Below the pieces are notes generated by a model that worked only from the letters and a program-made list of their open reading frames with translations, made no database searches and was not told where the DNA came from. The position numbers were made by a program, and so were the translations under genes. Below are positions 9,251 through 43,317 of a stretch of DNA of 64,000 nt, in pieces. This DNA is from Chrysiogenes arsenatis DSM 11915 (GTDB taxonomy: Bacteria > Chrysiogenota > Chrysiogenetes > Chrysiogenales > Chrysiogenaceae): positions 53,977-117,976 of the forward strand of contig NZ_AWNK01000011.1 of the NCBI RefSeq assembly GCF_000469585.1, in the 5' to 3' direction. Numbering within the stretch: the stretch's first letter is position 1; the number at the start of each line of letters is the position of its first letter.

Positions 9251-10189
9251 ATGAGCATGCAGGATAAAAAAGGGATTCTCCTCGAAAGCGGCACCAACGA
9301 ACTGGAAATCATTGAATTTCAGATCAATAAAACACAGCCAGATGGTTCGATTAAAGTTGGACACTACGGCATTAACGTGGCGAAAGTGCGGGAAATCATT
9401 AAACCGCCACAAACCACCGATTACCCGAATGCCCACCCGTGCATATCTGGGATCTTCAACTTACGCGGCAAGCTCATCCCCTTGCTTGATCTCGCCCAAT
9501 GGCTCGGCATCCCCTCCAACACTCCCGCAGCCGACAAGCGCGTGATTGTCACCGAGTTTAATCAGCTTTTTAATGGCTTTATGGTTGATAACGTCACCCG
9601 TATTTATCGCATGTCGTGGGAAAGCGTCGAAGCGCCATCGCAGTTTATGGAAACCGGCAATGACTGTGTGGTGGCCGTTGTCCGGTTGGAGAATCGCTTG
9701 GTGATGCTACTCGACTTTGAAAAAATCATCGCTGATGTCAACCCTGAAGCGAATAAGTACGATTTTGCCGAAGATACGCATGTCGGCCACGACGCCTCCA
9801 CGATGGAACGGCGCGGACAACACACCGTCATGCTGGTGGACGACTCTTCCTTTATCCGCCGTATGCTAAATGAAACACTCCGTTCCGCTGGCTATCTTAC
9901 CGTTACGGCTCAAAACGGCCTAGAAGCGCTTGAGCTTTTGCAGGACGAAGAAAACGCTTTGGTTGATTTACTCGTTACGGATATTGAAATGCCCGCAATG
10001 GACGGCTTCCATCTCATTAAACGGTTGCGCGAACAAGATAAATTCCGCGCGCTACCGATTATTGTTTTCTCTTCGATTATCAGTCCGGAAAATGCACGGA
10101 AAGCCGACGCAGTTGGTGCGAATGAAGCTATTACAAAACCTGAACTGAGTAAGCTCGTACAACGGGTCGACAGTTACCTCGGAATTTAG
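9251..10189 (+). CDS. cheV: Chemotaxis coupling protein CheV
   Basis: A 312-residue CheW-REC fusion. The CheW domain (about 15-165) couples receptors to CheA. The receiver domain (about 192-312) has the acidic pair Asp197/Asp198, phosphoacceptor Asp244 in VTDIEMP, and Lys296. CheV modulates chemoreceptor arrays by accepting phosphate from CheA. No other chemotaxis gene is nearby. The start has a good GGAGG. glnE begins two bases after its stop. Confidence 0.93.
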   Translation: MSMQDKKGILLESGTNELEIIEFQINKTQPDGSIKVGHYGINVAKVREIIKPPQTTDYPNAHPCISGIFNLRGKLIPLLDLAQWLGIPSNTPAADKRVIVTEFNQLFNGFMVDNVTRIYRMSWESVEAPSQFMETGNDCVVAVVRLENRLVMLLDFEKIIADVNPEANKYDFAEDTHVGHDASTMERRGQHTVMLVDDSSFIRRMLNETLRSAGYLTVTAQNGLEALELLQDEENALVDLLVTDIEMPAMDGFHLIKRLREQDKFRALPIIVFSSIISPENARKADAVGANEAITKPELSKLVQRVDSYLGI

Positions 10190-14453: not shown

Positions 14454-15233
14454 TTACAAAAAATCTAATAACGCACGGTTAAAGCTTGCTGAATCTTCCA
14501 TATTGCAAATATGCCCAGTGGCCGGAATCGTAACGAGTTTGGCGCCGGGGATTTGTTTGGCCATATCCTCAGATGCGGATGGTGGAATGGCGTTATCTTC
14601 CGCACCACAAATCACCAAGGTTGGCACCGTAATCGTTGGGAGCAACGCACGACGATCAGGGCGGTCACGCATCGCCAAAAGGTTTTGCACCGTTCCCGAC
14701 ACACTCGCCCGCATCATGATGTCGTGATATAAGTGTTTCTCTAAATACTTATCTGTCTCTGACCCTAAAAGCTTGCGAATAAAAACATCCGCCGCCGCTT
14801 TCACGCCATTATGTCCCACTTGGTCAGCCAACTTTGTGCGCGATTCCTGTGCTTCTTCGCTGTCAGCTTCGGCGCGAGTAACAATCAACATCAGTTTTTC
14901 AAATAATTCCGGGCGCTGCGCATACAGCGCAAGCGTTACATACCCACCCATAGACATGCCACCAATGGCAGCTTTTTTGATCTGAAGATGGTCAAGCAAC
15001 TCGCCAATCACCATGGCAAGCGAGTCTATCGAGCCAACTTCACTCGTAATATCAGAACGCCCAAACCCCGGCAAATCAACCGTTATGACAGAAAATCCAG
15101 CCTGCACCAGCGGGTCGATTTGTGGTCGCCACATAGCACTCGAAAGGGGAAAACCGTGAATTAACAACACCGAACGCGTACCCGTGCCGTGTAACTCGTA
15201 ATACATTTTGCCGTGTCCGTTGACGAAAAACAT
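14454..15233 (-). CDS. Alpha/beta-fold hydrolase
   Basis: A 259-residue hydrolase with the classical triad: Ser94 in GMSMGG, Asp213 in GAEDNAIP, and His241 in GHICN. The oxyanion motif HGFP lies near residues 26-29. It resembles 3-oxoadipate enol-lactonase-like and other small-ester hydrolases; the substrate cannot be named. The ATG at 15233 with GGAGG seven bases upstream is preferred over a TTG at 15248. It stands alone, convergent with the CNNM gene and divergent from the LuxR-kinase fusion. Because such enzymes can also act on acyl-homoserine lactones, the LuxR-type neighbour is worth noting, but the link is speculative. Confidence 0.85.
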   Translation of the reverse strand: MFFVNGHGKMYYELHGTGTRSVLLIHGFPLSSAMWRPQIDPLVQAGFSVITVDLPGFGRSDITSEVGSIDSLAMVIGELLDHLQIKKAAIGGMSMGGYVTLALYAQRPELFEKLMLIVTRAEADSEEAQESRTKLADQVGHNGVKAAADVFIRKLLGSETDKYLEKHLYHDIMMRASVSGTVQNLLAMRDRPDRRALLPTITVPTLVICGAEDNAIPPSASEDMAKQIPGAKLVTIPATGHICNMEDSASFNRALLDFL

Positions 15234-15396
15234 GGCTTTCACCTCCAAAAAATAGTGTGACCTATGAAAACAATACCATATTTTACTGGCAAATGAAGAG
15301 AATTCGGGCGGGTTTATTACTCCTCATACCACAATTCGATTCAAGGGAATGTCAGCAACATCACACCGAAATATCATCTTGTTAAAATATTCTCCT

Positions 15397-15443
15397 TTTA
15401 CTGTAGTTTCCTTCAGTTACATTACCGCTTCTTTCACAGTAAA
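15397..15443. promoter_or_regulatory. Inverted repeat upstream of the LuxR-kinase gene
   Basis: Perfect 8-base arms TTTACTGT (15397-15404) and ACAGTAAA (15436-15443) are separated by 31 bases. The right arm also begins a small palindrome, GTAAATTTTTAC (15439-15450). It lies 48 bases before the start codon in a 257-base gap and could be an operator or an RNA hairpin. Role is inferred. Confidence 0.35.
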
Positions 15444-15490
15444 TTTTTACCGTGCTTGCGAGCATAGGTTTGCATCCTCCGGAGGAAACC

Positions 15491-17065
15491 ATGGATTTCG
15501 AAAAATTTCTCGAGAAGATCACGCAGGCTAAAACACCCCGACAAGCACTCTCCGAAGCACAACAATACCTTTCCACTTGGGGCGTTGTCGGTATTGCCTA
15601 TGCTGGTCGCCACATTCCACAGCCATTCCTTTACAGTGGGCGCGAACTTACCCGCTGGTCAGAGCGCTACTTAGATCAAGATTATATCAGCATTGACCCT
15701 GTAGTCATTGCTACCCGCCACTCTTTACTCCCTATCGAATGGTGTGCTTTTAAACCGCTGGACTGGTTTAATGATGCCCAACGCACACTCTTTGCGGAAG
15801 CCGCAGCTCACGGTCAAGAGAATGGTCTGCTCATACCATTCCGTGAAGAAGCTGGCGGCGTGGCCGTCGTAGCGTATTTTTTTGGCACCAACCCACCCGT
15901 CACCGACAGTGAGCGTAAGGCACTGTTGATAATGACGGCGTTATACCTTCATGAACGGGTAAAGGTTTCCCCCCTTGCTTCAACCATTGCAACCGCACAA
16001 CATTCGTTAAGTCTTCGGGAAATGGAGTGTTTTGCGGGCGTTCAGGCAGGGCAGACGTATGCCCAAATAGGAAAAAAACTCGGCATTACTGAGCGAACCG
16101 TCACCTTCCATCTGCATAATGGTCGCGACAAACTGGGAGCGAGCACGGTTACTCATGCGATAACAATGGCGCTCCAACAAGGCTTACTGAGCAACAATGC
16201 TTCTCATAATTCATCAGAAAAGCCGCTACGAAGTGATGAAACAATTTTTCCATCCAAAAACAGTACTCTCTCCCCTACAGATCTCGCAATGACACAATGG
16301 AAAGTCTCGCAAATGAGCGAGATGATTTCTGCCATCGCTCACCATTGGCGCCAACCACTCACCGTGATCTCACTTTCCATTCAGAATATTCTCGAAGAGT
16401 ACAAAGCAAATGAATTAACCGCCGCAAGCCTTGAAGAGATCTCAGCCATCGCTTTGGCGTCGGTGGGGAAAATGTCGCAAACTATTTTTGATCTTACTGC
16501 CCACAGTTACTTGCGTAGTGGACTTCACTCGACATGCGCCTTGCGGGAAACGATGGAAACCGTTTGTTTTCTGTATCCAGAACTTGAAGCGTTACAAATC
16601 GAAGTCACCGGATATTTTTTAAAGCAGCGTCCCAAACCCGTTCATTTGTGGCGAGCAGGCAACCGACGGCTCATGGTGAACTTACCTATGGCGGGTCTGC
16701 GTCAAGTCATCTTCAATCTTATTGCGAATGCGAGGGATGCGATTATCGCAAAGCGGCGTGTCACGGCTCACAATTTTGCGGGAGCAATACGAATCAAAAT
16801 CAAAGTTATCAATGACTTCGTGGCCATTAGCGTGGAAGACAACGGTGGTGGCATTCAACATGGGGCATTGAAACGTATTTTTGAGCCATTTTTTACTACC
16901 AAAGAACGGTGTGTCGGGACGGGAATTATTTCGGGCTCAGGGTTGGGCTTGTACCAAGCAAAGCTCATAGTAGAAGCACAAGCTGGGGGGACCATTTACG
17001 CTAAAAACGGAACCAATGGGGCAGTGATCACCATAGCACTCCCCATAGCAGAGAATAGGCAATAA
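15491..17065 (+). CDS. LuxR-type regulator fused to a histidine kinase
   Basis: A 524-residue protein with three parts. Residues 1-160 resemble an autoinducer-binding domain: Trp56, Tyr60, Asp69 (in DPV) and Trp84 occur in the spacing seen in LuxR/TraR proteins. Residues 171-233 form a LuxR-type helix-turn-helix (SLREMECFAGVQAG, ITERTVTFHLHN, DKLGAS). After a linker, residues 270-524 are a histidine kinase: H-box AHHWRQPL with His284 as likely phosphosite, N-box near 409-413, G1 DNGGGI 450-455, and G2 GSGLGLY 482-488. The ATG at 15491 follows TCCGGAGGAAACC, a strong site. No LuxI synthase or response regulator is adjacent. The giant exported protein begins 34 bases later, so it may be its target or co-transcribed partner. 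Confidence 0.88.
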   Translation: MDFEKFLEKITQAKTPRQALSEAQQYLSTWGVVGIAYAGRHIPQPFLYSGRELTRWSERYLDQDYISIDPVVIATRHSLLPIEWCAFKPLDWFNDAQRTLFAEAAAHGQENGLLIPFREEAGGVAVVAYFFGTNPPVTDSERKALLIMTALYLHERVKVSPLASTIATAQHSLSLREMECFAGVQAGQTYAQIGKKLGITERTVTFHLHNGRDKLGASTVTHAITMALQQGLLSNNASHNSSEKPLRSDETIFPSKNSTLSPTDLAMTQWKVSQMSEMISAIAHHWRQPLTVISLSIQNILEEYKANELTAASLEEISAIALASVGKMSQTIFDLTAHSYLRSGLHSTCALRETMETVCFLYPELEALQIEVTGYFLKQRPKPVHLWRAGNRRLMVNLPMAGLRQVIFNLIANARDAIIAKRRVTAHNFAGAIRIKIKVINDFVAISVEDNGGGIQHGALKRIFEPFFTTKERCVGTGIISGSGLGLYQAKLIVEAQAGGTIYAKNGTNGAVITIALPIAENRQ

Positions 17066-17099: not shown

Positions 17100-20000
17100 A
17101 TGTGCATTTTGGGGAAGTTTAAAAAAATATTCGCTTTATCGCAGTCCATTGCGATGGTCTGCCTGATGGGACTATCTGCCTATGCGTGGGCAAACGACCA
17201 GCGTCGGGAAGTGGCCTTCATCGACGCTGGTATTGCCGATTATCAGACGCTGATGGAAGCAATACCGCCTACCACCGTGGTTTATCTACTGGACCCATCG
17301 CGCGATGGTGTGCAACAGATGGCAGACATTTTAGCGGAGCAAAATGCTTTGGACGCCATTCACATCCTGTCGCACGGCAGTGCTGGCGAAAAACAGATCG
17401 GCACGGCACGGCTCAATACGCACACACTTGAATATTATCACCATGATCTCAAACAGATCGGCCAGAGCCTGCAACCTGGTGGGGATATCTTGCTCTATGG
17501 ATGTGAGGTGGCAAGCGGGGAAAGCGGAAGAAAATTTATTGATTTACTCTCAAAGCTTACAAAGGCCAATATTGCGGCCTCTACCAATAAAACTGGAGCA
17601 AGCGCCAAACATGGAGATTGGATGTTGGAAGCAGGCTCTAAAAACAGCTTAGCTCTGCAATTTGATCATTATCCACATACATTGCAAATACCATCAGATG
17701 GCCTCTACACGTTCGCTAATGCCAATCAGAATCCTGATGGTACTGTTTCAACCGCAGATGATTTTTTTATTGTTGATAGATTGGATGGCAGTGGTGCGAG
17801 CAAAGCTACCCAAGCTGACGAATTTGGCGCCTATATTGAGGATGAAACGGAGTCGACTACAACGTATACCTCGTATTTAGAAGTCAGAGTTGCGCTGACT
17901 GGAAGTTTCTACCTAACGAATGCAACTATAGGCGAGTATAACCAAGATGGTACTTCTCCGCACAATAACTTCACAAGTGTATACCTCGCTGGTTATGCCA
18001 ATGGTGTAAGAGTATGTGAAACTACACCAATCAGCAGCATTGGAGCTTACGAAACAGCATATACCATCGACTACTCTCCTTGCTTTAATACACTCATGGA
18101 CAGCTTTAGAGCGTATTACACGATGAGTGTAGGTGACCGGCAGGACAATTTTAATCTTATTGATTTTACATTATCCGGCGCTTCGACAAATTCCGTGAGT
18201 GACACCACTCCCCCTACCTTCGCCATTGCCCCCGCCGCTTCCAACATCACCGCAATCAGCTTTGATCTTTCCGCCAGCCTTGATGAGGCTGGTAGCATCT
18301 ACTATGTTGCTCTTGCCGACGGTGCTGCAGTACCAAGTTCGGCTGATGTAAAGGCTGCTACGGCTGCTGGCGGCGGTTCTGCACTGGCGTCTGGGAATGC
18401 GGCAGCTACATCCGACCCATACAGCCACACGTTCAACGTTTCCGGCCTCCTTGCGAGTACAACGTATGATGTTTATGTTGTTGCAGAGGATGATGAAAAT
18501 ACACCAAACCTGATGGCATCGCCAATTTTGGTCAAAGTGACTACTACGGCTCCTCCCGCACCAACATTTGTTGCACTGGACGGCGACACCATGGAATGGG
18601 CCGGCAATACTGAGACTGTTTCCCTCGCAACGTCCGTCACGACTTCGGACACGTTTCGCAATGCGCTGAACGGTGGCAGTGGCGACTATGAAGGGGTGAC
18701 GCTCCGCGTCCAGCGCATACAGAATGGTGCGCCGGATCCAACCATTCACGACATATTTGGTATAGAGCACTCCGGTACGAGTTTCGCTCTCGTTGGCAAT
18801 GCCATCCAGGTTAACGGAACCGGGCAGACGTTTGCGACATTCACCAACAATGGCGGCGTATTGGCAATCACCTTTAGCACTATCGGCACTATTCCTACGA
18901 CCGCGAGAGTGCAGGAAGTGCTCCGCAGTATTACCTACCGCAACGATAGGCCTTACGGTGATGCCACACTCCGTTTCGCGTTTGAGGCGGGTGGCGATAG
19001 CAGTCATGCCGATGTCACCGTGCTGAGTTCAACCATTTATGTTGACCGGGAAGCATTTGACGACGACGGCGATGCCGCCGACGGCTTTAACCTTGCCGAA
19101 GCACTCGCCATCGCTCAGGACGGCGATACCATTCTTCTGCTGGACGGCACGTATCGTGGTCAGTTCCTAGCGACTACCGCGGTTACAATCAACGCAGCTC
19201 TCGGTGACAACGGGGTGGTAACGCTGGAAGCACCAGACTCTTCCGATCTGGTCTATTCACCTCAGGATATGCTGACCAATAATGGGCGGCATCGCTATCC
19301 TATCCTCGATCTCAGAACGGCGGTGCCGGGACAAGGAGTAGTGAGCGTCAGCAATATCGTAGTTGATGGGCGCTATCACGCCATTGACGATGAACATAAC
19401 GCCAACGAAGACCTGATTGGAATCGGCATCTTTGACACGCGAGCGACTCTTGATAGTGTTGAAGTGCGCAACATCGCGGCGCTCCGCAACGATACCGGAG
19501 AACTGTCTGGATTCAGCGAGAACTTTGGCATAGCTGTTGAAGGGAGCGACACGCTAGAAGAGCGGATCACCGTTACCATTCGAAACTCTACCTTCAGCTC
19601 CATCCAGAAAACTGCCCTTATTGCTTGGGGGCCGAAACTCCATATGGTCATTGAGGACAACACCTTCACCGGTGATGGGGTATACGGGCGCTCTGGCCAG
19701 AACGGGATGCAGATTGGTTCCAGTGGCCTGCGAACAGGAACGACAGCAGAAATTAGACGCAACACGCTACGCGAATATGATTTTGACCACGAGTCATATT
19801 CAGGAACAGGCATTTTGCTGCGCATGACAGATACCGTGGAGGTGTCTGATAACACCGTTACCGTCACTGGCCGTACTGCTGCCGCGAACAGAGGGATCGG
19901 CGTCGACATTATGGAAGTATCCGCACCCGTCACGGTTCGTGGCAACACGTTTGAAAACCTCGCGTTAGGTGTCCTGATTGAATCGCCGTACGGTACGCTG

Positions 20001-23000
20001 TATCACGGCGAACATACCATTGAGCAGAACAATTTCAACTCCAGCTATCAAGCCGTTTCCAACCCCGTTGCTGGGCCGCAGAATCGCCTGCTGATCACGC
20101 AAAGCAGTGCGGCTTCGGTAACCAATGGGCTTGGATTCTTGGAGTTTATTCTGAATGATGCGGATGACGTTTTCATTGATACTGGCGCGGCACCGTCATG
20201 GGTCAGTGGCGGTAGTGGCTCAGATACTATCACCACGGGCAGTGGCAGTGACACGCTTGAAGGTGGATCTGGCAATGATACCCTGACTGGCGGAGCGGGG
20301 AGCGATGTCTTTTTGTACGATACAACGGACAACGGTATCGACCTTATTACTGATTTCGGTGCTGGTGATCGCATTCGCGTCAACACACAGGATTTCGCTG
20401 GTGGAACCGTTACCCTTGGCAACGGGACAAATGTCGCTGCCAGTTCAGTGCAGGTTGCGGTAGATGGAAACGAAACCCGCCTGTATATCGACACCATCGG
20501 AACTGCGGGAGCCCCAGAGTTGGAAATCCGGCTGACGGGCGTCTATGGCGTGGAGCATTTCACGCTGAGTGGCAGTGATATTGTGTTTACGACACCGATT
20601 TATACCGTAAACTTCAGTGCTGGTGGAACGGTTGTTGAGAGTGCCGAAGCACTCTATGGCGATACCATCGAACTCCCCACGCCGAGTGCGCAGGAAAACC
20701 ACGAGTTTATTGGCTGGTATAAAAATTCCGGACTTACACAACTCTTCGACCCGGCAACGGACACCATCACTGGCAATACCACCCTGTACGCAAAATTCGT
20801 CGAAATATTTATTTTTGATACCGCCGAAGGGACGATTCTTGACTACAAGGGAACGGCCACTCACGTGGTTATCCCAACTCAGATTTACGGCTACGATGTT
20901 GTGCGCATTGGCGCTGCAGGCACCAACACCTGCCCACTCCTTTTCCGCTGCAAGGAGCTTGAGAGTGTGGTTATCCCAGAAGGGGTGCAAATCATCGGCT
21001 CAAATGCTTTCAACGACGCCAACCTGACTGCCGTTACCCTGCCCAGTACATTGGAAACGATCGAAAATGGAGCATTCGCCCTGAACACCTTTGCCGGTTT
21101 CAGCGTGAATATCCCCGAAAACGTGAAGTACATTGGCGATCACGCTTTCTACAACAGTGGGCTTGCTGGTGCAACGCTCCCAACGGATCTGGCATTCCTT
21201 GGTGAGCATGCCTTTGGATTAAACCAGATCGCTGCGATCACTATTCCGTCCGGCATTGGCACCATCCAACGTGGGGTTTTCTGGCGCAATCAACTGACAC
21301 ACGTTACTATTCCTGAAGGAATTACCAGTATTGCCGGAAGCGCCTTCAACGACAACCAACTCGAATCGGTCACGCTTCCAGAGGGGATTACCAGTATTGG
21401 CGATTATGCCTTTGCTCAAAACGAACTGGCAGCGCTCTCCATTCCCGCCACGGTGCAACTCATTGATGAATATGCTTTCTACAACAATAAAATTGTCGAC
21501 CTCACGCTGAATGGCGACAGCTTGGAGACCATCGAAGTGCAGGCGTTCCGTGACAACCTGATTGAAGCAGTCACCCTGCCGACCAGTCTTGTCCACGTCG
21601 GGGCATACGCCTTTGGTGACAATCCGAATCTTACTCAAGTAACGATTGGCTCAGGAGTGGCACTGGAAGACTACTTCACCAATCCAAATTGGTGGTTCGA
21701 GCATGCTTATACGAACTGGTACAACAAAGAAGACGGCACCTACGTGTATCGTTACGTTGACAGCACGTCATCCTGGTCATGGATACCGCTGACTCACGCG
21801 CTGGCTTTCCACACCAATGGTGGCTCGGAACAAGCCGGACAGAATGTAAAACATAACCGTACCGCTACTGAACCCTCCGATCCGACTCGCGATGGCTATA
21901 GTTTTGCTGGCTGGTTTACCGACATTGCGTTGAACGACACGTTTGAGTTCAACACGCTCATTACCACTCCCGCGACCTTGTATGCGAAGTGGAATCCCAA
22001 CACGTATACGCTGAATTTTGACGCAAATTCCGCTGACGGTGTCAGCGGCAATCTGGATGCCATCACCGTAACGTTCAGCGAGGCCGTCGGGAGCTTGCCA
22101 GCACCACAGCGTTCCGGACACAGCTTCGCGGGATGGAATACGCAACCAGATGGCGGGGGAGATACTTTTACTGGGGCAACAGTCTACGTCGATACGAATG
22201 ACAGCACGCTGTACGCGCAGTGGAGCGTCAGCCAATACACGATAACATTCGCAAGCAACGGTGGTTCGGCAGTGTCTGCGATAACACAGAATTACGGCAG
22301 CGCCATCACCGCGCCAGTCGCACCGACCCGCGAGGGCTACACTTTTGCCGGATGGAATCCAGCCGTGCCAAACACCATGCCTGCGGGCGGCGCAACACTG
22401 ACTGCGCAGTGGACAGTAAACGAATACACTATCACCTTTGATAGTGCTGGTGGGTCAGCTGTTGCCAGCATTACGCAGAACTTCGGCACGGATGTTACGG
22501 CTCCCGCTGCACCGACTCGCACTGGCTACACTTTTGCCGGATGGTCACCGGCGGTTCCAACAACCATGGCGGTTGGTGGTGCCGCACTCACCGCACAGTG
22601 GAACATCAACCAGTACAGCGTAAGTTTCGTCGACCACGATAGTGCTGTCCTCAAAAGCGACAGCGTCGAGCACGGCAGTGGCGCGACGGCACCAGCCAAT
22701 CCAACCCGTGTTGGCTATACGTTCACTGGCTGGAGTCCAGCCAGTTTTACCAACATTACTGGCGATACAAGCATCACGGCTCTTTACAGCCTCAACCGTT
22801 ACCCCATCACGGTTCTTGTCGATGGCCAAGGGATCGTCAGCAGTCCAGATAGTGCCGAGCATGGCAGCACTATCAGCGTGAGCGCCACCGCGAATGCTGG
22901 TTACACTTTTATCGAGTGGCAACGTGGTCAAGCAGCGCTGTCATCACTGAACCCTTACCAATTTACTGTTACTGAGACTATCGAGATCACCGCGATTTTC

Positions 23001-25550
23001 CGCGACATCACTTCGCCCGATAGCGGCGAAATATCTACGCTGCCAACACTCAGTAATCGCGATACCGGTGAATTGCGAGGGCGCGGGGAACCCGGCAGTA
23101 CGGTGTATCTCTACAATAACAGCAACTTGATCGGTTCACAGGAGATTGATCAAAACGGCGATTGGTCAATTGTGCTCGGCACAGAACATCTTCCCGAAGG
23201 AGAAAACCGCTTTAGTATTGTGATTACTGATCTATACGGAAACCGTTCCGACACGTCAGAGTCTGTTCTCTGGCAGATTGATCGCACGGCACCCGATGCT
23301 CCCGTCATCAATGGCTTGCCAGCCGTGACGCTGGAAGTGCTGGATCTGACACTCAGCGGTACTGCTGAACCACTCAGCCTTGTGTCTCTCACTCGCAATG
23401 GTATCGCCATCGGCACGACCAGCGTCACGGCCAATGGTATTTGGGAATACACCTCATCTTTACCGGGATATGACACCTACGAGTTTGTCGCATACGCCGA
23501 AGACATGGCCGGAAACCGTTCCGTAGCCTCATCTACCCTGATGGTCATCGCCAAAGCGCCCGTTACTCCGGGAATTTCTGACGCCCAGTGCGTGCAGGAC
23601 ACCGCTCATGCCATCACGTTTGACGCTATCCGTGGCGCAAATACTACCGCAAACTCCGTGACATCAAACTTAATGCTGAACAGCATTCTGGTAGACTGTG
23701 GCGCTCAGGTACAATGGACAAGTTCCCTTCCCGCTGTCATTAGCCACTTTGGTGTTGTTTCGACTCTCCCTTCCGAGCGGAACCGAAACCGTACGGTTAC
23801 TATGACGGCGGTTATCAGTAAGGGAGCAGCGACAACCGAAAAAGGGCTGCTGCTTACCGTGCCGCAAGCTGGTATTTCGTCAGTTGATATGTTAGCCGCT
23901 GACCGCAGTGCACTTACCTTTATCGATATCCGTGGCGTGAACATCGTGCCGCGCGAAATCACAGGGTCTCTGGTATTCCCAACTGCCGGAAAGCTGTATG
24001 CAAGTACGATTACATGGAGCGCCAGTCCCACCGGCGTCGTTAATACCATCACCGGTGCGGTAGTGCGGCCAATCTATCCGCATAGCAGCCAAGCTGTCAC
24101 GCTGGTGGCGCGGATTAGTCGGGACGGACTGGATACCGTTGAAACTTTTGAAATCACGGTTCTCCCGCTTCCGCAGGATGACAATGCTGCCGTTGCCACT
24201 GATCGCGCGACACTTTTCCCAGAACTCAAGCTCAATCGCGGCTTGCATCAGGTGGCAACCGCCCTTGGCCTTCCAATAGCGGGAGCCAGTGGGACGACCA
24301 TTACGTGGCACAGCGACTCGCCGGAATACTTGAGTGTTGCTGGTAACGATGCGATACCGCACCCGCAAGCAGGCGCAACGCATACGGTTCGCTTGACCGC
24401 AACGCTTCATAAAGGCACTGCGAGCACAACGCGTATTTTCCTGATTACCATTCCCGGTACGGCAACGGCCTCTGATGAAATCACCGGTATCAGTGCCAAT
24501 GTTGACTCCATAGAGTTTACCGCAGACGCACACACTGTCACGTTTACTGGTAGCAACGCTACCAGCACTATTGCCAATCACAGCAACTCGAAGGCGGTTG
24601 GTCTTGACGGTGATGCTATCAAGAGTGTTGTCGTGCGTAGTGATAACGGCGAAGCTTCGGCGGTACAGCAGGCCACCTTCTACCAAAATAGCAACGGCAC
24701 TCTGGAAAGTACTATTGATGTAAAACGCGCTGGAGACACATCAGAAAGCAGTCAGGTGCAACTGCGCGTTGCCGCTGGAGTCACCATCAAGGCGGAAATG
24801 ACCGACAGTGGCGAAGCGGTGATCGCCATCACCACCGGTGCTACACGTTCCACCGTGCGTGTTGATACGAGCGGAGCGGCTATTCATCAGGTTACTCTCA
24901 GCGGTCAGGAGACAACCGAAGCCATCTCACGTCTCGCCAACACCACAGTGCGCGTAGACAGCAGCGGCGCCGTGCATACCCAAGCCACTACGCTGCAAAA
25001 CAATGGCGCGGTTCATGTCAGCGTGATCGGACAAAGTGATGGAACGGCTACCCATGAGCTTACCGTGGGGAATCACATGGTACGAGCTACAAGTCACATT
25101 CCTGGTGCCAAAACGGAAGTAAAAGATTCCGGAGAAATTGAAACGCGTGTCAACCTCCTGCCACTCTTTGCTGGCACCCCAGCGGTTACCGTGATTGCCA
25201 ACCCTGACGGGAGCGCTGAACACCGCGTCACACTCGGAAATGCCTTCAGCAGCGCCAATACGACATTGCCCGGAGCTATCACGGACGTACGCGCCGATAC
25301 CGTTGAAACCACGGTGACAACCACCATCGGCGGCCATACGATCAAAGCCATTGTCGAAACTCAGGCAAATGGCGAATCGCGCACCCGCTTTGTGCGAATC
25401 GACAGTAGTGGCAATCCCGCAGAAATTCAGCCTACCGCCGATCCAACAACGCCATTCGAACTAGGAAACCGAGCGGAAATCAAAGAAAACTTGAACGGTG
25501 ACCTGATATTTACCGTGAATACCAACGTAACGCGCGAACTGCGGTTCTAA
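17100..25550 (+). CDS. Giant exported mosaic surface protein (DUF4347, beta-helix, LRR, InlB repeats)
   Basis: A 2816-residue protein. A signal peptide (1-31, ending AWA) is followed by a DUF4347-type domain at about 36-200 (ILSHGSAGEKQIG, LLYGCEVASGESG). Next come a fibronectin-like domain (365-480), a parallel beta-helix-like region (about 645-990, many short Asn-turn rungs) and four RTX-like nonapeptides (1037-1072). One InlB-type repeat (about 1167-1235), about ten BspA-type leucine-rich repeats (1260-1530) and six more InlB-type repeats (1565-1960) follow. Ig-like domains (1965-2155), three atrophied bacterial-Ig-type domains (2157-2455) and an unrecognised beta-rich repeat region (2460-2816) ending RELRF complete it. 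It looks like a surface or secreted adhesin. No dedicated secretion system is adjacent. GGGGAGG precedes the ATG. Confidence 0.9.
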   Translation: MCILGKFKKIFALSQSIAMVCLMGLSAYAWANDQRREVAFIDAGIADYQTLMEAIPPTTVVYLLDPSRDGVQQMADILAEQNALDAIHILSHGSAGEKQIGTARLNTHTLEYYHHDLKQIGQSLQPGGDILLYGCEVASGESGRKFIDLLSKLTKANIAASTNKTGASAKHGDWMLEAGSKNSLALQFDHYPHTLQIPSDGLYTFANANQNPDGTVSTADDFFIVDRLDGSGASKATQADEFGAYIEDETESTTTYTSYLEVRVALTGSFYLTNATIGEYNQDGTSPHNNFTSVYLAGYANGVRVCETTPISSIGAYETAYTIDYSPCFNTLMDSFRAYYTMSVGDRQDNFNLIDFTLSGASTNSVSDTTPPTFAIAPAASNITAISFDLSASLDEAGSIYYVALADGAAVPSSADVKAATAAGGGSALASGNAAATSDPYSHTFNVSGLLASTTYDVYVVAEDDENTPNLMASPILVKVTTTAPPAPTFVALDGDTMEWAGNTETVSLATSVTTSDTFRNALNGGSGDYEGVTLRVQRIQNGAPDPTIHDIFGIEHSGTSFALVGNAIQVNGTGQTFATFTNNGGVLAITFSTIGTIPTTARVQEVLRSITYRNDRPYGDATLRFAFEAGGDSSHADVTVLSSTIYVDREAFDDDGDAADGFNLAEALAIAQDGDTILLLDGTYRGQFLATTAVTINAALGDNGVVTLEAPDSSDLVYSPQDMLTNNGRHRYPILDLRTAVPGQGVVSVSNIVVDGRYHAIDDEHNANEDLIGIGIFDTRATLDSVEVRNIAALRNDTGELSGFSENFGIAVEGSDTLEERITVTIRNSTFSSIQKTALIAWGPKLHMVIEDNTFTGDGVYGRSGQNGMQIGSSGLRTGTTAEIRRNTLREYDFDHESYSGTGILLRMTDTVEVSDNTVTVTGRTAAANRGIGVDIMEVSAPVTVRGNTFENLALGVLIESPYGTLYHGEHTIEQNNFNSSYQAVSNPVAGPQNRLLITQSSAASVTNGLGFLEFILNDADDVFIDTGAAPSWVSGGSGSDTITTGSGSDTLEGGSGNDTLTGGAGSDVFLYDTTDNGIDLITDFGAGDRIRVNTQDFAGGTVTLGNGTNVAASSVQVAVDGNETRLYIDTIGTAGAPELEIRLTGVYGVEHFTLSGSDIVFTTPIYTVNFSAGGTVVESAEALYGDTIELPTPSAQENHEFIGWYKNSGLTQLFDPATDTITGNTTLYAKFVEIFIFDTAEGTILDYKGTATHVVIPTQIYGYDVVRIGAAGTNTCPLLFRCKELESVVIPEGVQIIGSNAFNDANLTAVTLPSTLETIENGAFALNTFAGFSVNIPENVKYIGDHAFYNSGLAGATLPTDLAFLGEHAFGLNQIAAITIPSGIGTIQRGVFWRNQLTHVTIPEGITSIAGSAFNDNQLESVTLPEGITSIGDYAFAQNELAALSIPATVQLIDEYAFYNNKIVDLTLNGDSLETIEVQAFRDNLIEAVTLPTSLVHVGAYAFGDNPNLTQVTIGSGVALEDYFTNPNWWFEHAYTNWYNKEDGTYVYRYVDSTSSWSWIPLTHALAFHTNGGSEQAGQNVKHNRTATEPSDPTRDGYSFAGWFTDIALNDTFEFNTLITTPATLYAKWNPNTYTLNFDANSADGVSGNLDAITVTFSEAVGSLPAPQRSGHSFAGWNTQPDGGGDTFTGATVYVDTNDSTLYAQWSVSQYTITFASNGGSAVSAITQNYGSAITAPVAPTREGYTFAGWNPAVPNTMPAGGATLTAQWTVNEYTITFDSAGGSAVASITQNFGTDVTAPAAPTRTGYTFAGWSPAVPTTMAVGGAALTAQWNINQYSVSFVDHDSAVLKSDSVEHGSGATAPANPTRVGYTFTGWSPASFTNITGDTSITALYSLNRYPITVLVDGQGIVSSPDSAEHGSTISVSATANAGYTFIEWQRGQAALSSLNPYQFTVTETIEITAIFRDITSPDSGEISTLPTLSNRDTGELRGRGEPGSTVYLYNNSNLIGSQEIDQNGDWSIVLGTEHLPEGENRFSIVITDLYGNRSDTSESVLWQIDRTAPDAPVINGLPAVTLEVLDLTLSGTAEPLSLVSLTRNGIAIGTTSVTANGIWEYTSSLPGYDTYEFVAYAEDMAGNRSVASSTLMVIAKAPVTPGISDAQCVQDTAHAITFDAIRGANTTANSVTSNLMLNSILVDCGAQVQWTSSLPAVISHFGVVSTLPSERNRNRTVTMTAVISKGAATTEKGLLLTVPQAGISSVDMLAADRSALTFIDIRGVNIVPREITGSLVFPTAGKLYASTITWSASPTGVVNTITGAVVRPIYPHSSQAVTLVARISRDGLDTVETFEITVLPLPQDDNAAVATDRATLFPELKLNRGLHQVATALGLPIAGASGTTITWHSDSPEYLSVAGNDAIPHPQAGATHTVRLTATLHKGTASTTRIFLITIPGTATASDEITGISANVDSIEFTADAHTVTFTGSNATSTIANHSNSKAVGLDGDAIKSVVVRSDNGEASAVQQATFYQNSNGTLESTIDVKRAGDTSESSQVQLRVAAGVTIKAEMTDSGEAVIAITTGATRSTVRVDTSGAAIHQVTLSGQETTEAISRLANTTVRVDSSGAVHTQATTLQNNGAVHVSVIGQSDGTATHELTVGNHMVRATSHIPGAKTEVKDSGEIETRVNLLPLFAGTPAVTVIANPDGSAEHRVTLGNAFSSANTTLPGAITDVRADTVETTVTTTIGGHTIKAIVETQANGESRTRFVRIDSSGNPAEIQPTADPTTPFELGNRAEIKENLNGDLIFTVNTNVTRELRF
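20205..20315 (+). repeat. RTX-like calcium-binding nonapeptide repeats
   Basis: Four consecutive GG-x-G-x-D-x-u-x units (GGSGSDTIT, TGSGSDTLE, GGSGNDTLT, GGAGSDVFL), then a DLITDF segment of the kind that follows RTX blocks. They lie inside the giant gene, mid-protein rather than at the C-terminus where type I secretion substrates usually carry them. Confidence 0.8.
20930..21690 (+). repeat. BspA-type leucine-rich repeat array
   Basis: About ten tandem units of 22-23 codons in the giant gene, with the pattern L-x-x-V-T-(I/L)-P-x-x-(I/V)-x-x-I-G-x-x-A-F. Examples are LTHVTIPEGITSIAGSAF and LESVTLPEGITSIGDYAF. This BspA-like (LRR_5) form is associated with binding to proteins or surfaces. The copies have diverged, so the array is old rather than freshly amplified. 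Confidence 0.85.
21790..22985 (+). repeat. InlB-type (Listeria-Bacteroides) repeat array
   Basis: Six units of roughly 62-75 codons in the giant gene, each with Y-x-(I/V)-x-F near its start and a G-Y-x-F-x-G-W centre, ending A-x-W or A-x-(Y/F). Units three and four (about 22230-22610) are the most alike, which points to a relatively recent duplication. A seventh unit lies before the leucine-rich repeats (about 20598-20805). Confidence 0.85.
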
Positions 25551-26522: not shown

Positions 26523-27578
26523 GTGGAAATCCATAACCGTCCAATAGCAGAGCGGATCGAATGGCTGATGACGCACAGTCGTTCCCACTCAGAAACTTTT
26601 TGTAGTCCAGAGGCCTCGCTCGCCCGCGAACGCTACCTTGCCGAACACACGACACAACTGATCGTCCTGAAGTGCATGGACGGGCGCATTCATATTCCCT
26701 ATGCCACGAGAACGCCGCTCGGCATTTTTCGGCCTTTGCGTAACCTTGGCGGTATGTTTAACCTTGGCTGGCCATATTTGGGCGAAGTGTTGACGCATAT
26801 GGTGCAGGAAGCCGTAGCCGCAGGGCGCCGCTCGCTGATCTTTATTACTTACCACTTTTCTCAAGGGGAAGAATCGCGCGGCTGTGCTGGCTTTCAGTGC
26901 GATATGGCAGCGGCCATCCGTCACGCCTACGAAATTCGCGCGCAGGTCGAAGAGACCTTCGGCACACTGCACCAGACCGTCTATCCACTCGTCTGTGGCT
27001 TTGAAACCGACGAAGACGCCCTGATCATTCACGGCATCGGCGATGCTGTGCTCAATCTCGGTACGTGGGACGATGCCAACATTGCGCGCCTGCCGCACCA
27101 CCTGCAAACACTCCTGCCCGACATGCCGGCCTCTATCCGTCGCGATCTGCTCCCACTGTTAATCGGTAATCTGGAGCATATTCAGGAGATGCGACAGACG
27201 GCACGGACGCTGGATATCGAACATCGCGAATGGATCATCTGCATTGGTCGTGGTTTTGACTTCCTGCACATCCCCAATATCGCCCTGATTATTGGCCCGT
27301 ATAGCCCGGATCTAGCTGACCCGATTCAAAAAGCGGCGGGAATCATCAGTGCCAATATGTCAAAGGGGCGAATTCCCAATGATGGATTCTTACTGCTGGC
27401 ATCGGCACCGTATCAGGAGATGGGGGTTGATCGCGCGCGCGCCACACTCAAGTCGCGCTTTTTGTCGCAGTTTGCGGCGAAGGTGATCGCGTCTGACTAC
27501 CCCGAACTGGCACGCAAAATGGTGGTGCGCACGGCGGTGCTGAACTGGAATACGCGAGGGTTGGAGTTGATTGAGTAA
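26523..27578 (+). CDS. CsoSCA-like beta-carbonic anhydrase candidate
   Basis: A 351-residue protein with the beta-carbonic-anhydrase signature C-x-D-x-R at Cys51-Asp53-Arg55 (KCMDGRIH). His111 and Cys121 (TYHFSQGEESRGCAGF) are possible remaining zinc ligands. The ten-residue His-to-Cys spacing is far longer than the two residues between them in ordinary beta-class enzymes. It resembles CsoSCA, the carboxysomal enzyme, as I recall its ligand spacing. The CsoSCA N-terminal region is missing, since the motif begins at residue 51. No carboxysome or Rubisco gene is nearby, so a free CO2/bicarbonate enzyme or another hydratase is possible. GTG start with GGAG six bases upstream. Monocistronic by position. 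Confidence 0.55.
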   Translation: MEIHNRPIAERIEWLMTHSRSHSETFCSPEASLARERYLAEHTTQLIVLKCMDGRIHIPYATRTPLGIFRPLRNLGGMFNLGWPYLGEVLTHMVQEAVAAGRRSLIFITYHFSQGEESRGCAGFQCDMAAAIRHAYEIRAQVEETFGTLHQTVYPLVCGFETDEDALIIHGIGDAVLNLGTWDDANIARLPHHLQTLLPDMPASIRRDLLPLLIGNLEHIQEMRQTARTLDIEHREWIICIGRGFDFLHIPNIALIIGPYSPDLADPIQKAAGIISANMSKGRIPNDGFLLLASAPYQEMGVDRARATLKSRFLSQFAAKVIASDYPELARKMVVRTAVLNWNTRGLELIE

Positions 27579-39055: not shown

Positions 39056-39707
39056 AGATCACCAGGAACTCCGTGAATTGATTGCGTACAACCTTGAAAA
39101 AGAGGGTGAGTACGAAATTTTGAACGCCGAAAATGCGAATGATGCATTGATTCTCCTGGAAGATGGCGATGTCGATTTGATCCTGCTGGATCTGATGCTG
39201 CCGGGGCTCGGTGGGCTCGAATTCCTGAAGATTGTCAAAGGCAATAGCCGTCACACGAATTTGCCCGTGGTGATTATTTCCGCCAAAAACAGCGAACAGG
39301 ACGTCGTTTCTGGCCTTAAATTAGGCGCCGATGACTACCTCACTAAACCATTCAGTATGAAAGTGCTCGTCGCAAAAGTTGAAACTATCCTACGCCGTAT
39401 GCAAACATCTGAAGGGAAACTCTTTAGCTATGGCGACCTTTCGATTGACCTTGAAATGCACAAAGTGATGGCCGCGGGGGAAGAAGTTACCCTGACCGTC
39501 AAAGAGTTTGAACTACTGCTCCTTTTTATCAAAAAACCGCGTAAAGTGTTTAATCGGAATCAATTGCTCAATTCCATCTGGGGATACGAGTCCGACAGTT
39601 ACACACGCACCGTCGATGCTCACATTTCCTCACTCCGCAAAAAACTCGGCGCGGCGGGGAAAATCATCCGTTCTGTCCCCAAAGTAGGCTACGGCCTCGA
39701 CGTATGA
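39033..39707 (+). CDS. phoB: Phosphate regulon response regulator PhoB
   Basis: A 224-residue OmpR-family regulator. The receiver domain (1-118) has acidic residues Glu8/Asp9, phosphoacceptor Asp53, Ser83 and Lys105 (TKPF). The winged-helix DNA-binding domain (about 125-224) ends with VDAHISSLRKKLG and VPKVGYGLDV. It is co-encoded with phoR (four-base overlap) and a PhoU paralogue. Expected to bind Pho boxes such as those at 36617-36656. Confidence 0.93.
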   Translation: MNRILLVEDHQELRELIAYNLEKEGEYEILNAENANDALILLEDGDVDLILLDLMLPGLGGLEFLKIVKGNSRHTNLPVVIISAKNSEQDVVSGLKLGADDYLTKPFSMKVLVAKVETILRRMQTSEGKLFSYGDLSIDLEMHKVMAAGEEVTLTVKEFELLLLFIKKPRKVFNRNQLLNSIWGYESDSYTRTVDAHISSLRKKLGAAGKIIRSVPKVGYGLDV

Positions 39708-41416
39708 AATCATTCGGGAAGGTTTTCCTTACCATCTATCTCCCCATTGCCTGTGTGATGCTGGTGGTGTTTTCTTTTTCCAGCACCCTACTACAAGACG
39801 CCGCACGCCAGGAACTGGTGCGCGAGATGCAAAATAAATGGAATATTCTGGCGACCATTGACCGCTTTCCGACCGAATTTAATGCGGAAATGCACCAACG
39901 CCATCAGCAGGTTACCCGCGATACTTCGCTACGGATCACCCTGATTGCTCCCGACGGTACCGTCATCAGCGAATCACATCACGACGCGAGCACCATCGCC
40001 ACCATCGACAATCATATCGCCCGCCCCGAGGTGATCGAAGCGATGGCGCGCAAAACTGGATACTCCCTGCGCCATAGCGACACGACTGGGATGGCTATGA
40101 TTTATTACGCCGCAAAGTTGCCGCAGAGTGAGATGATTCTGCGACTGGCCTATCCCAGTACCTATCTCGACCAACTGCGTGCCGAAGCGAACCGTCAGCA
40201 TATCGCTATTTTTATCCTCTGTTTTTTTGTCGTAGCGCTGATTGCCCTCTACCTCGCGCGAAAAATTACGCTGCCAATTCAGAAACTCGACTTTATTGCG
40301 GAAAATGTGGAAGCCGGCAATGTTGACATCGAATTTCCCCGTTTTCAGGATAAAACGATGACGAACGTGGTGGAACTTATCTACCGCATTTACCGTGCGA
40401 TGCAGCAACAAAAAGAGGCATTAGAGTCGGAACAGGCGAAACTCAACCATATTTTTGCCATTTTGGAAGAAGGGATAGTGCTGCTTGACGAGCGCAATAC
40501 CATCCTCCACGCCAACCAAAAAGCTGAAGACTACCTCGGCGTTTCCCTTCCGGCTGGTGCAAACATTTTGGGCGACGTCAATCATTTTAAAATCATTACG
40601 TTTTTCAAGCAAATTTTAGACAGTAATAGCAAAAAAGATTGGGAAAAATTCTTGTTCGAAGAACATATTTTTGAAGTGAGCTACCGCCGCCTGACGAAAG
40701 AGAAGTTGATTGTTTTTTTTGATGTTACCGAAGAAGCCCGTTACGAAGAATACAAAGCCGAGCTGGTCGGCAATATTTCGCACGAACTGCGTACGCCGCT
40801 CGCGATGATTATGGGCTACGCCGAAACCATTCTGAACGATCCCGATATGCCACCAGCAACGGCACGGCGCTTTCTAGAAATCGTTTTTAAAAGTTCGCGC
40901 CGTTTAAGCGATACCATTGACGATATTCTTAAACTGAGCAAGCTCGAATCCAAAGGCAATCAATTTGAAATTACTGCGCCAACAATGATGAGCGAGTTGC
41001 GCGATGAGCTGCAAGAGCGTTTTGGGCGGCTCGACAATGGCCGTTCACTCTGCTTCAACATCGCGCTCGAATCGGCACGGGTTCAGTACGACCACCTCCT
41101 CAGTATTCTGTCCAATCTCATTGATAATGCCTTAAAATATTCACGCGGCACTCACATTCACATTGCCCTTTTTCGGCGCGACGGGCAGGTGTGGCTTGAG
41201 GTTGAAGACGAAGGGCCAGTGATCCCACGCGAAGAACGGGAACGGATTTTCGAGCGCTTTTACACGGTCTCAAAGTCTCGCAATCAGTCAATTAGCGGGA
41301 CAGGCATCGGCCTGTCCATCGTCAAGCACATCGTTCAACTCTATCGTGGTTCCGCTATCGTGGTCGAAGGGAGCCGCAACGGTAACCTTTTCCGCATCCG
41401 ACTGAGGGAGAAATAA
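39704..41416 (+). CDS. phoR: Phosphate regulon sensor kinase PhoR
   Basis: A 570-residue membrane kinase. Helix 1 (about 7-28), a periplasmic region of about 135 residues, and helix 2 (about 167-186) are followed by HAMP, a PAS-like domain (AILEEGIVLLDERN) and HisKA with His360 in SHELRTPL. The HATPase domain has an N-box NLIDNALKYS. Its G1 box reads DEGPVI (502-507) where DxGxGI is usual, a Gly-to-Val change at 506. The FERFYT and GTGIGLSI motifs are normal. The sizeable periplasmic part differs from E. coli PhoR, which has almost none, so it might sense a ligand itself. Confidence 0.92.
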   Translation: MKSFGKVFLTIYLPIACVMLVVFSFSSTLLQDAARQELVREMQNKWNILATIDRFPTEFNAEMHQRHQQVTRDTSLRITLIAPDGTVISESHHDASTIATIDNHIARPEVIEAMARKTGYSLRHSDTTGMAMIYYAAKLPQSEMILRLAYPSTYLDQLRAEANRQHIAIFILCFFVVALIALYLARKITLPIQKLDFIAENVEAGNVDIEFPRFQDKTMTNVVELIYRIYRAMQQQKEALESEQAKLNHIFAILEEGIVLLDERNTILHANQKAEDYLGVSLPAGANILGDVNHFKIITFFKQILDSNSKKDWEKFLFEEHIFEVSYRRLTKEKLIVFFDVTEEARYEEYKAELVGNISHELRTPLAMIMGYAETILNDPDMPPATARRFLEIVFKSSRRLSDTIDDILKLSKLESKGNQFEITAPTMMSELRDELQERFGRLDNGRSLCFNIALESARVQYDHLLSILSNLIDNALKYSRGTHIHIALFRRDGQVWLEVEDEGPVIPREERERIFERFYTVSKSRNQSISGTGIGLSIVKHIVQLYRGSAIVVEGSRNGNLFRIRLREK

Positions 41417-41418
41417 GC

Positions 41419-43317
41419 ATGTTCACACTCGACTCATCTACACTGAACCAAGCAACCATTTTTACGATAGACGACGAACCGGGCAGAGCGATTCTGGAGG
41501 ATCTTATGCTGAGTCAAAAATGGCAACGCGCTATCGAGTGTACGGACTACGCTTTTCAGCCAATCGTTAATACCCTTACCGGAAGTACTTTTGCGTTGGA
41601 AGCACTTATTCGGGGTGTCAATAAAGCGGGATTTCACTCAATAGACCATTTTTTCACTTCCGCATATCAAGAAGGGGTGCTTTTTTCGGTTGATATTGCC
41701 TTGCGCCGTAAAGCAATCCTGAAATTTCTACACATCCCGTTCCACCAAAAACTCCGCCTGTTCTACAATTACGATCACCGCGTGGTTGAAATGCCCAACT
41801 ACCAATCAGGGATTTTTGAACAACTGTTAGAAGAACTCGGCGTGGCCACTTCCGTCATTTGTTTAGAATTAACCGAAAAACATCACTACAACTACAGTCA
41901 CACCTCGTCATTTCGCGCTGTTTTAGAATTGGTCAAGCAACGCGGATTTACTATTGCCATTGACGATTTTGGCGTTGGTCACGCTTCGTTTGAACTCCTC
42001 TATCATTCCGATCCTGACATTATCAAAATCGACCGCTTCCTGATTAGCTCCATCCAAAGCGATATTAAAAAGAAATCCTACTGCTCGCATATCGTCAGCC
42101 TTGCACACTTGCAAGGCGTCACCGTGGTTGCTGAAGGGATTGAAACGGAAGATGAATATTCGGTGTGCCGCGAAATCGGTTGCGACCTTATCCAAGGGTA
42201 TTTAGTGGCATATCCCACCGAAATAGTCAGTGAATTGGCCGTAAAATACGATAAAATTCGCGAATTTCATGAAAATCAGCGGCGAAATATTTCCAACGAT
42301 AAAGCACTGCTACTGCGCGAAATGGTTCATATTGAGCCATTGGAAGAACATACCCCCATGGAAGATCTGTTTACCCGAATGCGCCTAAACGAAGAATTCA
42401 ACTACCTCCCCGTGATTGACAAACTGGGCAAACCACTGGGGATAATTCGTGAAAAAACCCTTAAAAAGTACATCTACTCGCCCTACGGCAAAGAATTGCT
42501 GTGTAATCGCTGGTTTACCCATTCATTGCGTAAATATATCGACGACTCGCCTGTGGCCGATATCCATATGCCACTCGAAAAAATCCTCTCCATTTTTGCG
42601 CAAAATGCCGAAGCCGAAGGGGTACAACTTACCGAAAATCAACGCTATATTGGTTTTTTAACCGCAAAATCTCTGTTAAATACATTAAACGAGAAGAATT
42701 TGGCATTTGCGCGCGACGTGAATCCGCTCAGTAAACTTCCGGGAAATATTTTAATTAACGACCATATCGTCGCCTGCCTCAGCGACACGAACCACGACCA
42801 TTACCTCATTTATTTCGATTTTGATAATTTTAAGCCATTTAACGACCGTTTCGGCTTTCGTCAGGGGGATCGGGCCATTCTTCTGTTTACCGATATCCTT
42901 AAAAAATCGTTTACCGGCCACTCGGCGTTTGTAGGCCACATAGGCGGCGATGATTTTTTTGTGGCACTGACACTGCTACCAGAAAGGAAGAATAGTGCCG
43001 AAAACATCCGGGATCAGGTCGCCAAAGTTCTCTTGAAGTTTACCGATGCTATCGCCCCTTTTTACACCGAAGAAGAGATCCGCCAAGGGTGCTACCATTC
43101 ACGCGATCGTAGTGGGCAGGAGTGCAGCTTTACCCTCCTGCGGGTGAGTGCCGCTATTATGCTTGCGGAGCAAAACCAAATGAATATAACGCTGGATAAT
43201 ATTTCATCAATTCTAGCGGACACCAAGAAGAAGGCGAAAAAATCCCCTGAGGGGATCGCATTTTTTGCACAGGAAATTGGTTGTTACGTGTTGGAGTCAT
43301 CGGATTCGACAGCATAA
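41419..43317 (+). CDS. EAL-CBS-GGDEF cyclic-di-GMP protein
   Basis: A 632-residue soluble protein. The EAL domain (about 35-275) has EALIR at 61-65, LELTE, IDDFGVGHAS and VVAEGIETE, so phosphodiesterase residues are largely kept. A CBS-type region (about 295-425) and a C-terminal GGDEF domain (about 445-620) follow. The signature there is GGDDF (509-513) instead of GGDEF, so cyclase activity is uncertain. The EAL-CBS-GGDEF order is a known architecture. The ATG lies two bases after the phoR stop, so it is probably expressed with the Pho regulators. No membrane segment is seen. Confidence 0.9.
   Translation: MFTLDSSTLNQATIFTIDDEPGRAILEDLMLSQKWQRAIECTDYAFQPIVNTLTGSTFALEALIRGVNKAGFHSIDHFFTSAYQEGVLFSVDIALRRKAILKFLHIPFHQKLRLFYNYDHRVVEMPNYQSGIFEQLLEELGVATSVICLELTEKHHYNYSHTSSFRAVLELVKQRGFTIAIDDFGVGHASFELLYHSDPDIIKIDRFLISSIQSDIKKKSYCSHIVSLAHLQGVTVVAEGIETEDEYSVCREIGCDLIQGYLVAYPTEIVSELAVKYDKIREFHENQRRNISNDKALLLREMVHIEPLEEHTPMEDLFTRMRLNEEFNYLPVIDKLGKPLGIIREKTLKKYIYSPYGKELLCNRWFTHSLRKYIDDSPVADIHMPLEKILSIFAQNAEAEGVQLTENQRYIGFLTAKSLLNTLNEKNLAFARDVNPLSKLPGNILINDHIVACLSDTNHDHYLIYFDFDNFKPFNDRFGFRQGDRAILLFTDILKKSFTGHSAFVGHIGGDDFFVALTLLPERKNSAENIRDQVAKVLLKFTDAIAPFYTEEEIRQGCYHSRDRSGQECSFTLLRVSAAIMLAEQNQMNITLDNISSILADTKKKAKKSPEGIAFFAQEIGCYVLESSDSTA

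Follow-up and report, generated by a model that had tools for sequence, protein, structure and literature searches.

Gram-negative bacteria detect acyl-homoserine lactones (AHLs) in two separate ways, through LuxR receptors and through histidine kinases. A gene of the arsenate-respiring Chrysiogenes arsenatis DSM 11915 raises the question of whether both can be carried by one polypeptide and, if so, what such a protein would do. The gene lies in a stretch of 64,000 nucleotides that was analysed as a whole (the window), and the original prediction had placed a LuxR regulator fused to a histidine kinase at positions 15491-17065. We found a single uninterrupted frame of 524 codons with exactly these limits, running from an ATG at 15491 to a stop codon that ends at 17065 and preceded by a strong ribosome-binding site. 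A longer mechanical frame is possible from a GTG at 15452, but the ATG is preferred as the start because of the GGAGG at 15481-15485. The gene and its parts are the following.

15491..17065, plus strand: luxR-histidine kinase fusion gene (524 aa), a single open frame with GGAGG 5 nt before the ATG
15481..15485, plus strand: Shine-Dalgarno sequence GGAGG, read directly from the sequence
15539..15961, plus strand: autoinducer-binding domain, residues 17-157 (PF03472, 2.6e-16; alignment with LuxR relatives)
16004..16171, plus strand: GerE/LuxR helix-turn-helix (HTH), residues 172-227 (PF00196, 1.3e-12)
16193..16264, plus strand: Ser/Asn-rich linker, about residues 235-258 (from the limits of the LuxR and kinase matches)
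16313..16480, plus strand: HisKA dimerisation/phosphoacceptor helices, residues 275-330 (PF00512, 3.1e-5, 24.4 bits)
16340..16342, plus strand: His284, predicted phosphoacceptor in HHWRQPL (motif search)
16694..17047, plus strand: HATPase_c catalytic domain, residues 402-519, with N, G1, F and G2 boxes (PF02518, 4.4e-18; motifs)

From the N- to the C-terminus, Pfam recognises Autoind_bind, GerE, HisKA and HATPase_c. The N-terminal Autoind_bind match (residues 17-157) reaches 59.9 bits for a cut-off of 23, so that a domain search upholds an assignment that it might have rejected. Moreover, the six pocket positions of TraR are all kept in an alignment with LuxR relatives (W56, Y60, D69, P70, W84 and G112), which adds P70 and G112 to the Trp/Tyr/Asp/Trp set initially claimed (W56, Y60, D69 and W84). 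Many LuxR solos, including most of the non-proteobacterial ones tabulated, carry pocket substitutions (PMC4338825); unlike them, the fusion protein has none, and both pocket tryptophans, often missing from LuxR solos, are present. The GerE domain was found in the middle of the protein, as predicted (residues 172-227, 47.6 bits for a cut-off of 23.5), and its score falls within the 44-57 bits of functional LuxR relatives. Eight of the nine TraR hallmarks (W57, Y61, D70, P71, W85, G113, E178, L182 and G188) are conserved: in the HTH, Glu177 and Gly187 correspond to TraR E178 and G188, and the equivalent of Leu182 is Phe181. This intact HTH suggests that DNA binding has been retained. When compared with solved structures, the first 240 residues matched QscR (3.9e-16) and TraR (2.5e-12), as well as RhlR, CviR, SdiA and LasR, and the matches span both the receptor and the HTH. 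Both the Pfam and the solved-structure matches are far from chance. In NCBIfam, the N-terminal part resembles the TraR and PA1136 regulators, at scores far below the equivalog cut-offs. With its central HTH and 524 aa, the protein departs from the LuxR norm of a C-terminal HTH and ∼230-260 aa.

The C-terminal half, which had been described as a kinase of the HWRQPL type, carries HHWRQPL at residues 284-290 (the commoner form is HQWRQPL), followed in order by NARDA, DNGGG, FEPFFTT and GSGLGL; the H, N, G1, F and G2 boxes are all kept. HATPase_c (residues 402-519) scores 66.2 bits for a cut-off of 26.4. The HisKA match (residues 275-330), which holds His284, lies just under the Pfam cut-off (24.4 bits for 26.9), and this domain is also below the cut-off in most of the kinases compared, including related ones of the family and the phylum. 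NCBIfam places the kinase part near AtoS, FixL and CckA, again far below the equivalog cut-offs. From these intact motifs, phosphotransfer by the fusion protein is predicted. The best mean hydrophobicity over 19 residues is 1.36, and no segment is long or hydrophobic enough for a membrane helix; the protein is therefore predicted to be cytoplasmic.

The LuxR-side matches stop at about residues 234-240 and the kinase-side matches begin at about residues 259-267, with a short Ser/Asn-rich linker between them. A frameshift joining two genes, a concern raised along with the original prediction, has left no sign: the junction shows no stop, no indication of a lost stop codon and no internal Shine-Dalgarno sequence, and the GC and codon-position pattern is fairly even across it. 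A two-gene or frameshift artefact was rejected on these grounds. The published draft of the genome (50% GC; 49.7% in the window) has a coverage of 12x Sanger plus 120x Illumina. We consider with very high confidence that the Autoind_bind-GerE-HisKA-HATPase_c architecture is real and intact.

The fusion protein is the only Autoind_bind protein of its genome (2,825,161 bp, 22 contigs). In the phylum, the domain was found in 11 of 51 genomes, the carrier of the fusion included. The other 10 carriers possess unfused LuxR solos in open frames of 252-320 codons; the ones that were read have GerE and lack a kinase. Screening of 154 genomes of three other phyla gave no Autoind_bind protein. A full-protein search detected no second fused protein in ∼650 sampled Pseudomonadota genomes (399 + 289, partly overlapping, with only three to five candidates scored per genome), and no record with at least 80% coverage was present among 72,556 plasmids or among 50,697 phages; the viral contigs searched did not contain any relative either. 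The scan of genome contigs used few peptide patterns and the searches were not exhaustive, so uniqueness is not claimed. The same domain order was found in no other genome searched, in agreement with the view that the combined protein is unusual. A Rosetta-stone pairing was also rejected, since the LuxR gene is not beside a kinase gene in the relatives whose neighbourhoods were read; one apparent LuxR-into-kinase match (G740) proved to be a LuxR of 254 aa followed by unrelated ORFs. The LuxR solos L029, L030, L032 and L033, from four genomes of a different family within the phylum, all have the same gene after them, for a predicted lipoprotein with an N-terminus like MSKLRLAAAICLSFLLFSCGGG; the two genes form a conserved and unstudied pair without LuxI.

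Full-text searches of the literature, with subscription papers and annotation databases outside their scope, brought up no account of a kinase that carries a fused autoinducer-binding domain. Surveys of LuxR solos have dealt with ABD-plus-HTH architectures only (PMC4338825) or have applied a length filter (PMC4357305). Such definitions would miss fusions of this kind, and a length-filtered census would leave out the present protein because its HTH is central and it has 524 aa. A single LuxR solo has been reported for the Chrysiogenetes, that of Desulfurispirillum indicum (E6W1G5, PMC4338825).

The absence of luxI, first stated for the vicinity of the gene, extends to the whole genome and to the phylum: with PF00765, the one synthase family used, no LuxI synthase over the cut-off was found in the 51 genomes. 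This locus therefore does not represent a canonical LuxI/LuxR system. As for the 'quorum-sensing' label of the original prediction, the autoinducer-binding domain is present, but because no synthase accompanies it, the label would cover at most a sensor of the LuxR-solo type that responds to the signal of others.

The origin of the two halves was then considered separately. The kinase half has its best matches (37% and 40% identity) in the other two genomes of the family, in kinases whose sensors are PAS or PAS-GAF. In the kinase tree, it is joined to one of these two kinases with support of 90/86, both on long branches. The receptor half scores 72-84 bits with the best proteobacterial LuxRs versus 16-28 bits with the phylum's own solos, and in the tree it falls, on a long branch, with Pseudomonadota and not with the phylum solos. 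Its highest-scoring relative (L052, proteobacterial) has a LuxI gene directly after it (Autoind_synth, 4e-21). Match scores favour the view that the LuxR half came from Pseudomonadota by horizontal transfer. However, the AU test (p = 0.135) leaves room for one clade of the receptor half and the phylum solos, and the transfer was not retained. Synteny in two other genomes of the family marks no shared locus, the neighbouring CNNM gene matching at only 29-30%. Finally, the similarity of one half ends where that of the other starts, which fits a sensor swap with a LuxR receptor in the place of PAS. Judged from the sequence, the best reading is a soluble sensor kinase in which a LuxR solo would replace the usual PAS sensor.

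Around the fusion gene, three features bear on its possible targets.

17100..25550, plus strand: giant surface protein, 2816 aa (DUF4347, beta-helix, RTX, LRR_5, Listeria-Bacteroides repeats, aBig_2)
14454..15248, minus strand: divergent alpha/beta hydrolase, nearest to 3-oxoadipate enol-lactonase, below the cut-off
15399..15418, no strand: weak lux-box-like dyad TACTGTAGTTTCCTTCAGTT, with ACTG-N10-CAGT at 15400-15417 and lux-box spacing; candidate operator only

The gene of the giant surface protein starts 34 bp downstream of the fusion gene, a gap that makes a shared transcript probable, and its product is a candidate target or partner of the fusion protein. This surface protein is of the secreted type, with a mix of repeats that includes BspA leucine-rich and atrophied Ig repeats. 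On the other side, the hydrolase gene and the fusion gene diverge from a common promoter region of 242 bp. The hydrolase scores 161 bits for a cut-off of 256 bits with 3-oxoadipate enol-lactonase, and might be a signal-degrading enzyme. The dyad TACTGTAGTTTCCTTCAGTT agrees with 12 of the 16 specified lux-box positions and its exact ACTG-N10-CAGT form occurs twice in the 64 kb, but scores as high are reached by 24% of the stretches of that size in the window; it is not significant, and was rejected as an established operator and kept as a candidate. No response regulator is encoded next door, as had been noted, and the nearest receiver domain found belongs to a CheV-like CheW-REC gene (9251-10189). 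Elsewhere in the window, we observed a stand-alone carboxysome-shell-type carbonic anhydrase gene (csoSCA2-like, 26523-27578), already noted for C. arsenatis (PMC9164163), and, close to genes for phosphate-type transporters, a gene for an EAL-CBS-GGDEF protein (41419-43317) that comes directly after one for a histidine kinase (39704-41416).

From these features we infer ligand class, kinase activity, DNA binding, output coupling, regulated genes and the history of the fusion as follows. A LuxR-type gene would have been joined, at about residue 240-260, to an HWRQPL-type catalytic core common in the phylum, at the site where such kinases usually bear PAS or GAF sensors. The product would be a soluble, dimeric sensor histidine kinase with a LuxR-type solo receptor as its sensory module. 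A small hydrophobic ligand from other bacteria, most likely an AHL or a close analogue, would enter the cell and fold or rearrange the receptor domain; the geometry of the HisKA helices would then shift, autophosphorylation of His284 would change and the phosphate would pass to a response regulator encoded elsewhere. The HTH probably still binds DNA, plausibly in the shared upstream region, and may hence act on the surface-protein transcript. Sensing of an AHL-type signal is supported by the conservation of all six pocket residues and by the LuxI linkage of the best-matching LuxR (L052).

Our confidence in this mechanism is moderate. To the reading as a whole, namely a soluble LuxR-solo-sensing kinase with an exogenous AHL-like ligand, a distant response regulator and an HTH that is probably DNA-binding, we assign a probability of roughly 0.45. 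Several points weigh against it: no partner response regulator lies next door, the TraR Leu182 equivalent is Phe, HisKA is slightly under its curated cut-off and the lux-box-like dyad is statistically unconvincing. Moreover, the protein is known from one genome, so there is no conserved fused form that would show selection, and either half may have drifted in function because both are on long branches. A single-sequence AlphaFold model, with a pLDDT of 35.5, is too poor for judging the coupling of receptor and kinase. That one polypeptide acts as AHL receptor, DNA-binding regulator and ligand-controlled kinase, with a single binding event driving both promoter control and a phosphorelay, seems to us doubtful.

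The protein could instead be an ordinary LuxR-type transcription factor, its kinase part serving mainly for constitutive dimerisation or for adjusting DNA binding in response to ATP, without phosphotransfer to a partner. A GerE domain well over its cut-off would suit this role, as would the lack of an adjoining response regulator and the layout usual for a local regulator, with the surface-protein gene 34 bp on and the divergent hydrolase promoter. However, the conservation of the phosphoacceptor histidine and of all the catalytic boxes would be unexpected if catalysis were dispensable, and orphan kinases with distant partners are common; we consider this explanation unlikely. It is likewise improbable that the protein is essentially a sensor kinase in which the LuxR half only senses the ligand and the HTH is a structural linker that does not bind DNA. 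The 47.6 bits of GerE, within the range of functional relatives, and the conserved Glu and Gly hallmarks reveal no decay of the HTH, even though the junction is located where family kinases bear PAS or GAF sensors, the HTH between sensor and kinase must pass the signal on and the Leu182 equivalent is Phe.

We give little credence to a pocket ligand other than an AHL, for example a pyrone, an aromatic compound, a lactone from plants or bacteria, or a metabolite connected with the divergent hydrolase. No synthase was found in the genome or the phylum with PF00765, the hydrolase is nearest to an enol-lactonase, and LuxR solos are known to sense non-AHL ligands (PMC10134790); yet non-AHL solos usually have substituted pockets, whereas here the six residues are all kept, and the best-matching LuxR is LuxI-linked. 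Finally, it is very improbable that the fusion stems from an error in sequencing or assembly, or from a recent gene accident without function: occurrence in one genome only and the long branches of both halves would be compatible with it, but 524 open codons without an internal ribosome-binding site, the fairly even GC and codon-position pattern over the junction, the 12x Sanger and 120x Illumina coverage and the key residues conserved in both halves argue against it.

The preferred reading, a soluble sensor kinase with a LuxR solo as its sensor, can be set against known systems, and the fusion brings two known kinds together in a new combination of domains. TraR, QscR, RhlR, CviR and SdiA share the order Autoind_bind-GerE, the spacing and the six pocket residues; they end after the DNA-binding domain, whereas the fusion protein adds a kinase of ∼290 residues. 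The LuxR solos of the phylum, for example that of D. indicum (E6W1G5), share the Autoind_bind-GerE arrangement and the lack of LuxI, but they are stand-alone frames of 252-320 codons, with no kinase beside those examined. With the HWRQPL-type PAS/GAF kinases, the fusion protein has the HisKA-HATPase core in common (37-40% identity for the best matches). However, both of the family members that were looked at have PAS or GAF as their sensor instead of a LuxR receptor. The existence of such a fusion in nature would show that a kinase can use the ligand domain of LuxR as a plug-in sensor. It offers a way to test whether a kinase can be driven by this domain when a ligand makes it fold or rearrange, as well as a template for AHL-controlled synthetic kinases, and it would place signal eavesdropping in an anaerobic metal-respiring lineage without a synthase.

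Kinases of the LuxN/AinR type sense AHLs; LuxN is membrane-bound, its sensor is unrelated to LuxR and it has no DNA-binding domain. These proteins are histidine kinases under AHL control, as proposed for the fusion protein, but LuxN senses through the membrane, whereas the fusion protein would use a cytoplasmic LuxR domain. If one binding event did drive both of its outputs, the protein would directly unite the one-component mode of LuxR with a LuxN-like two-component mode of sensing the same signal class.
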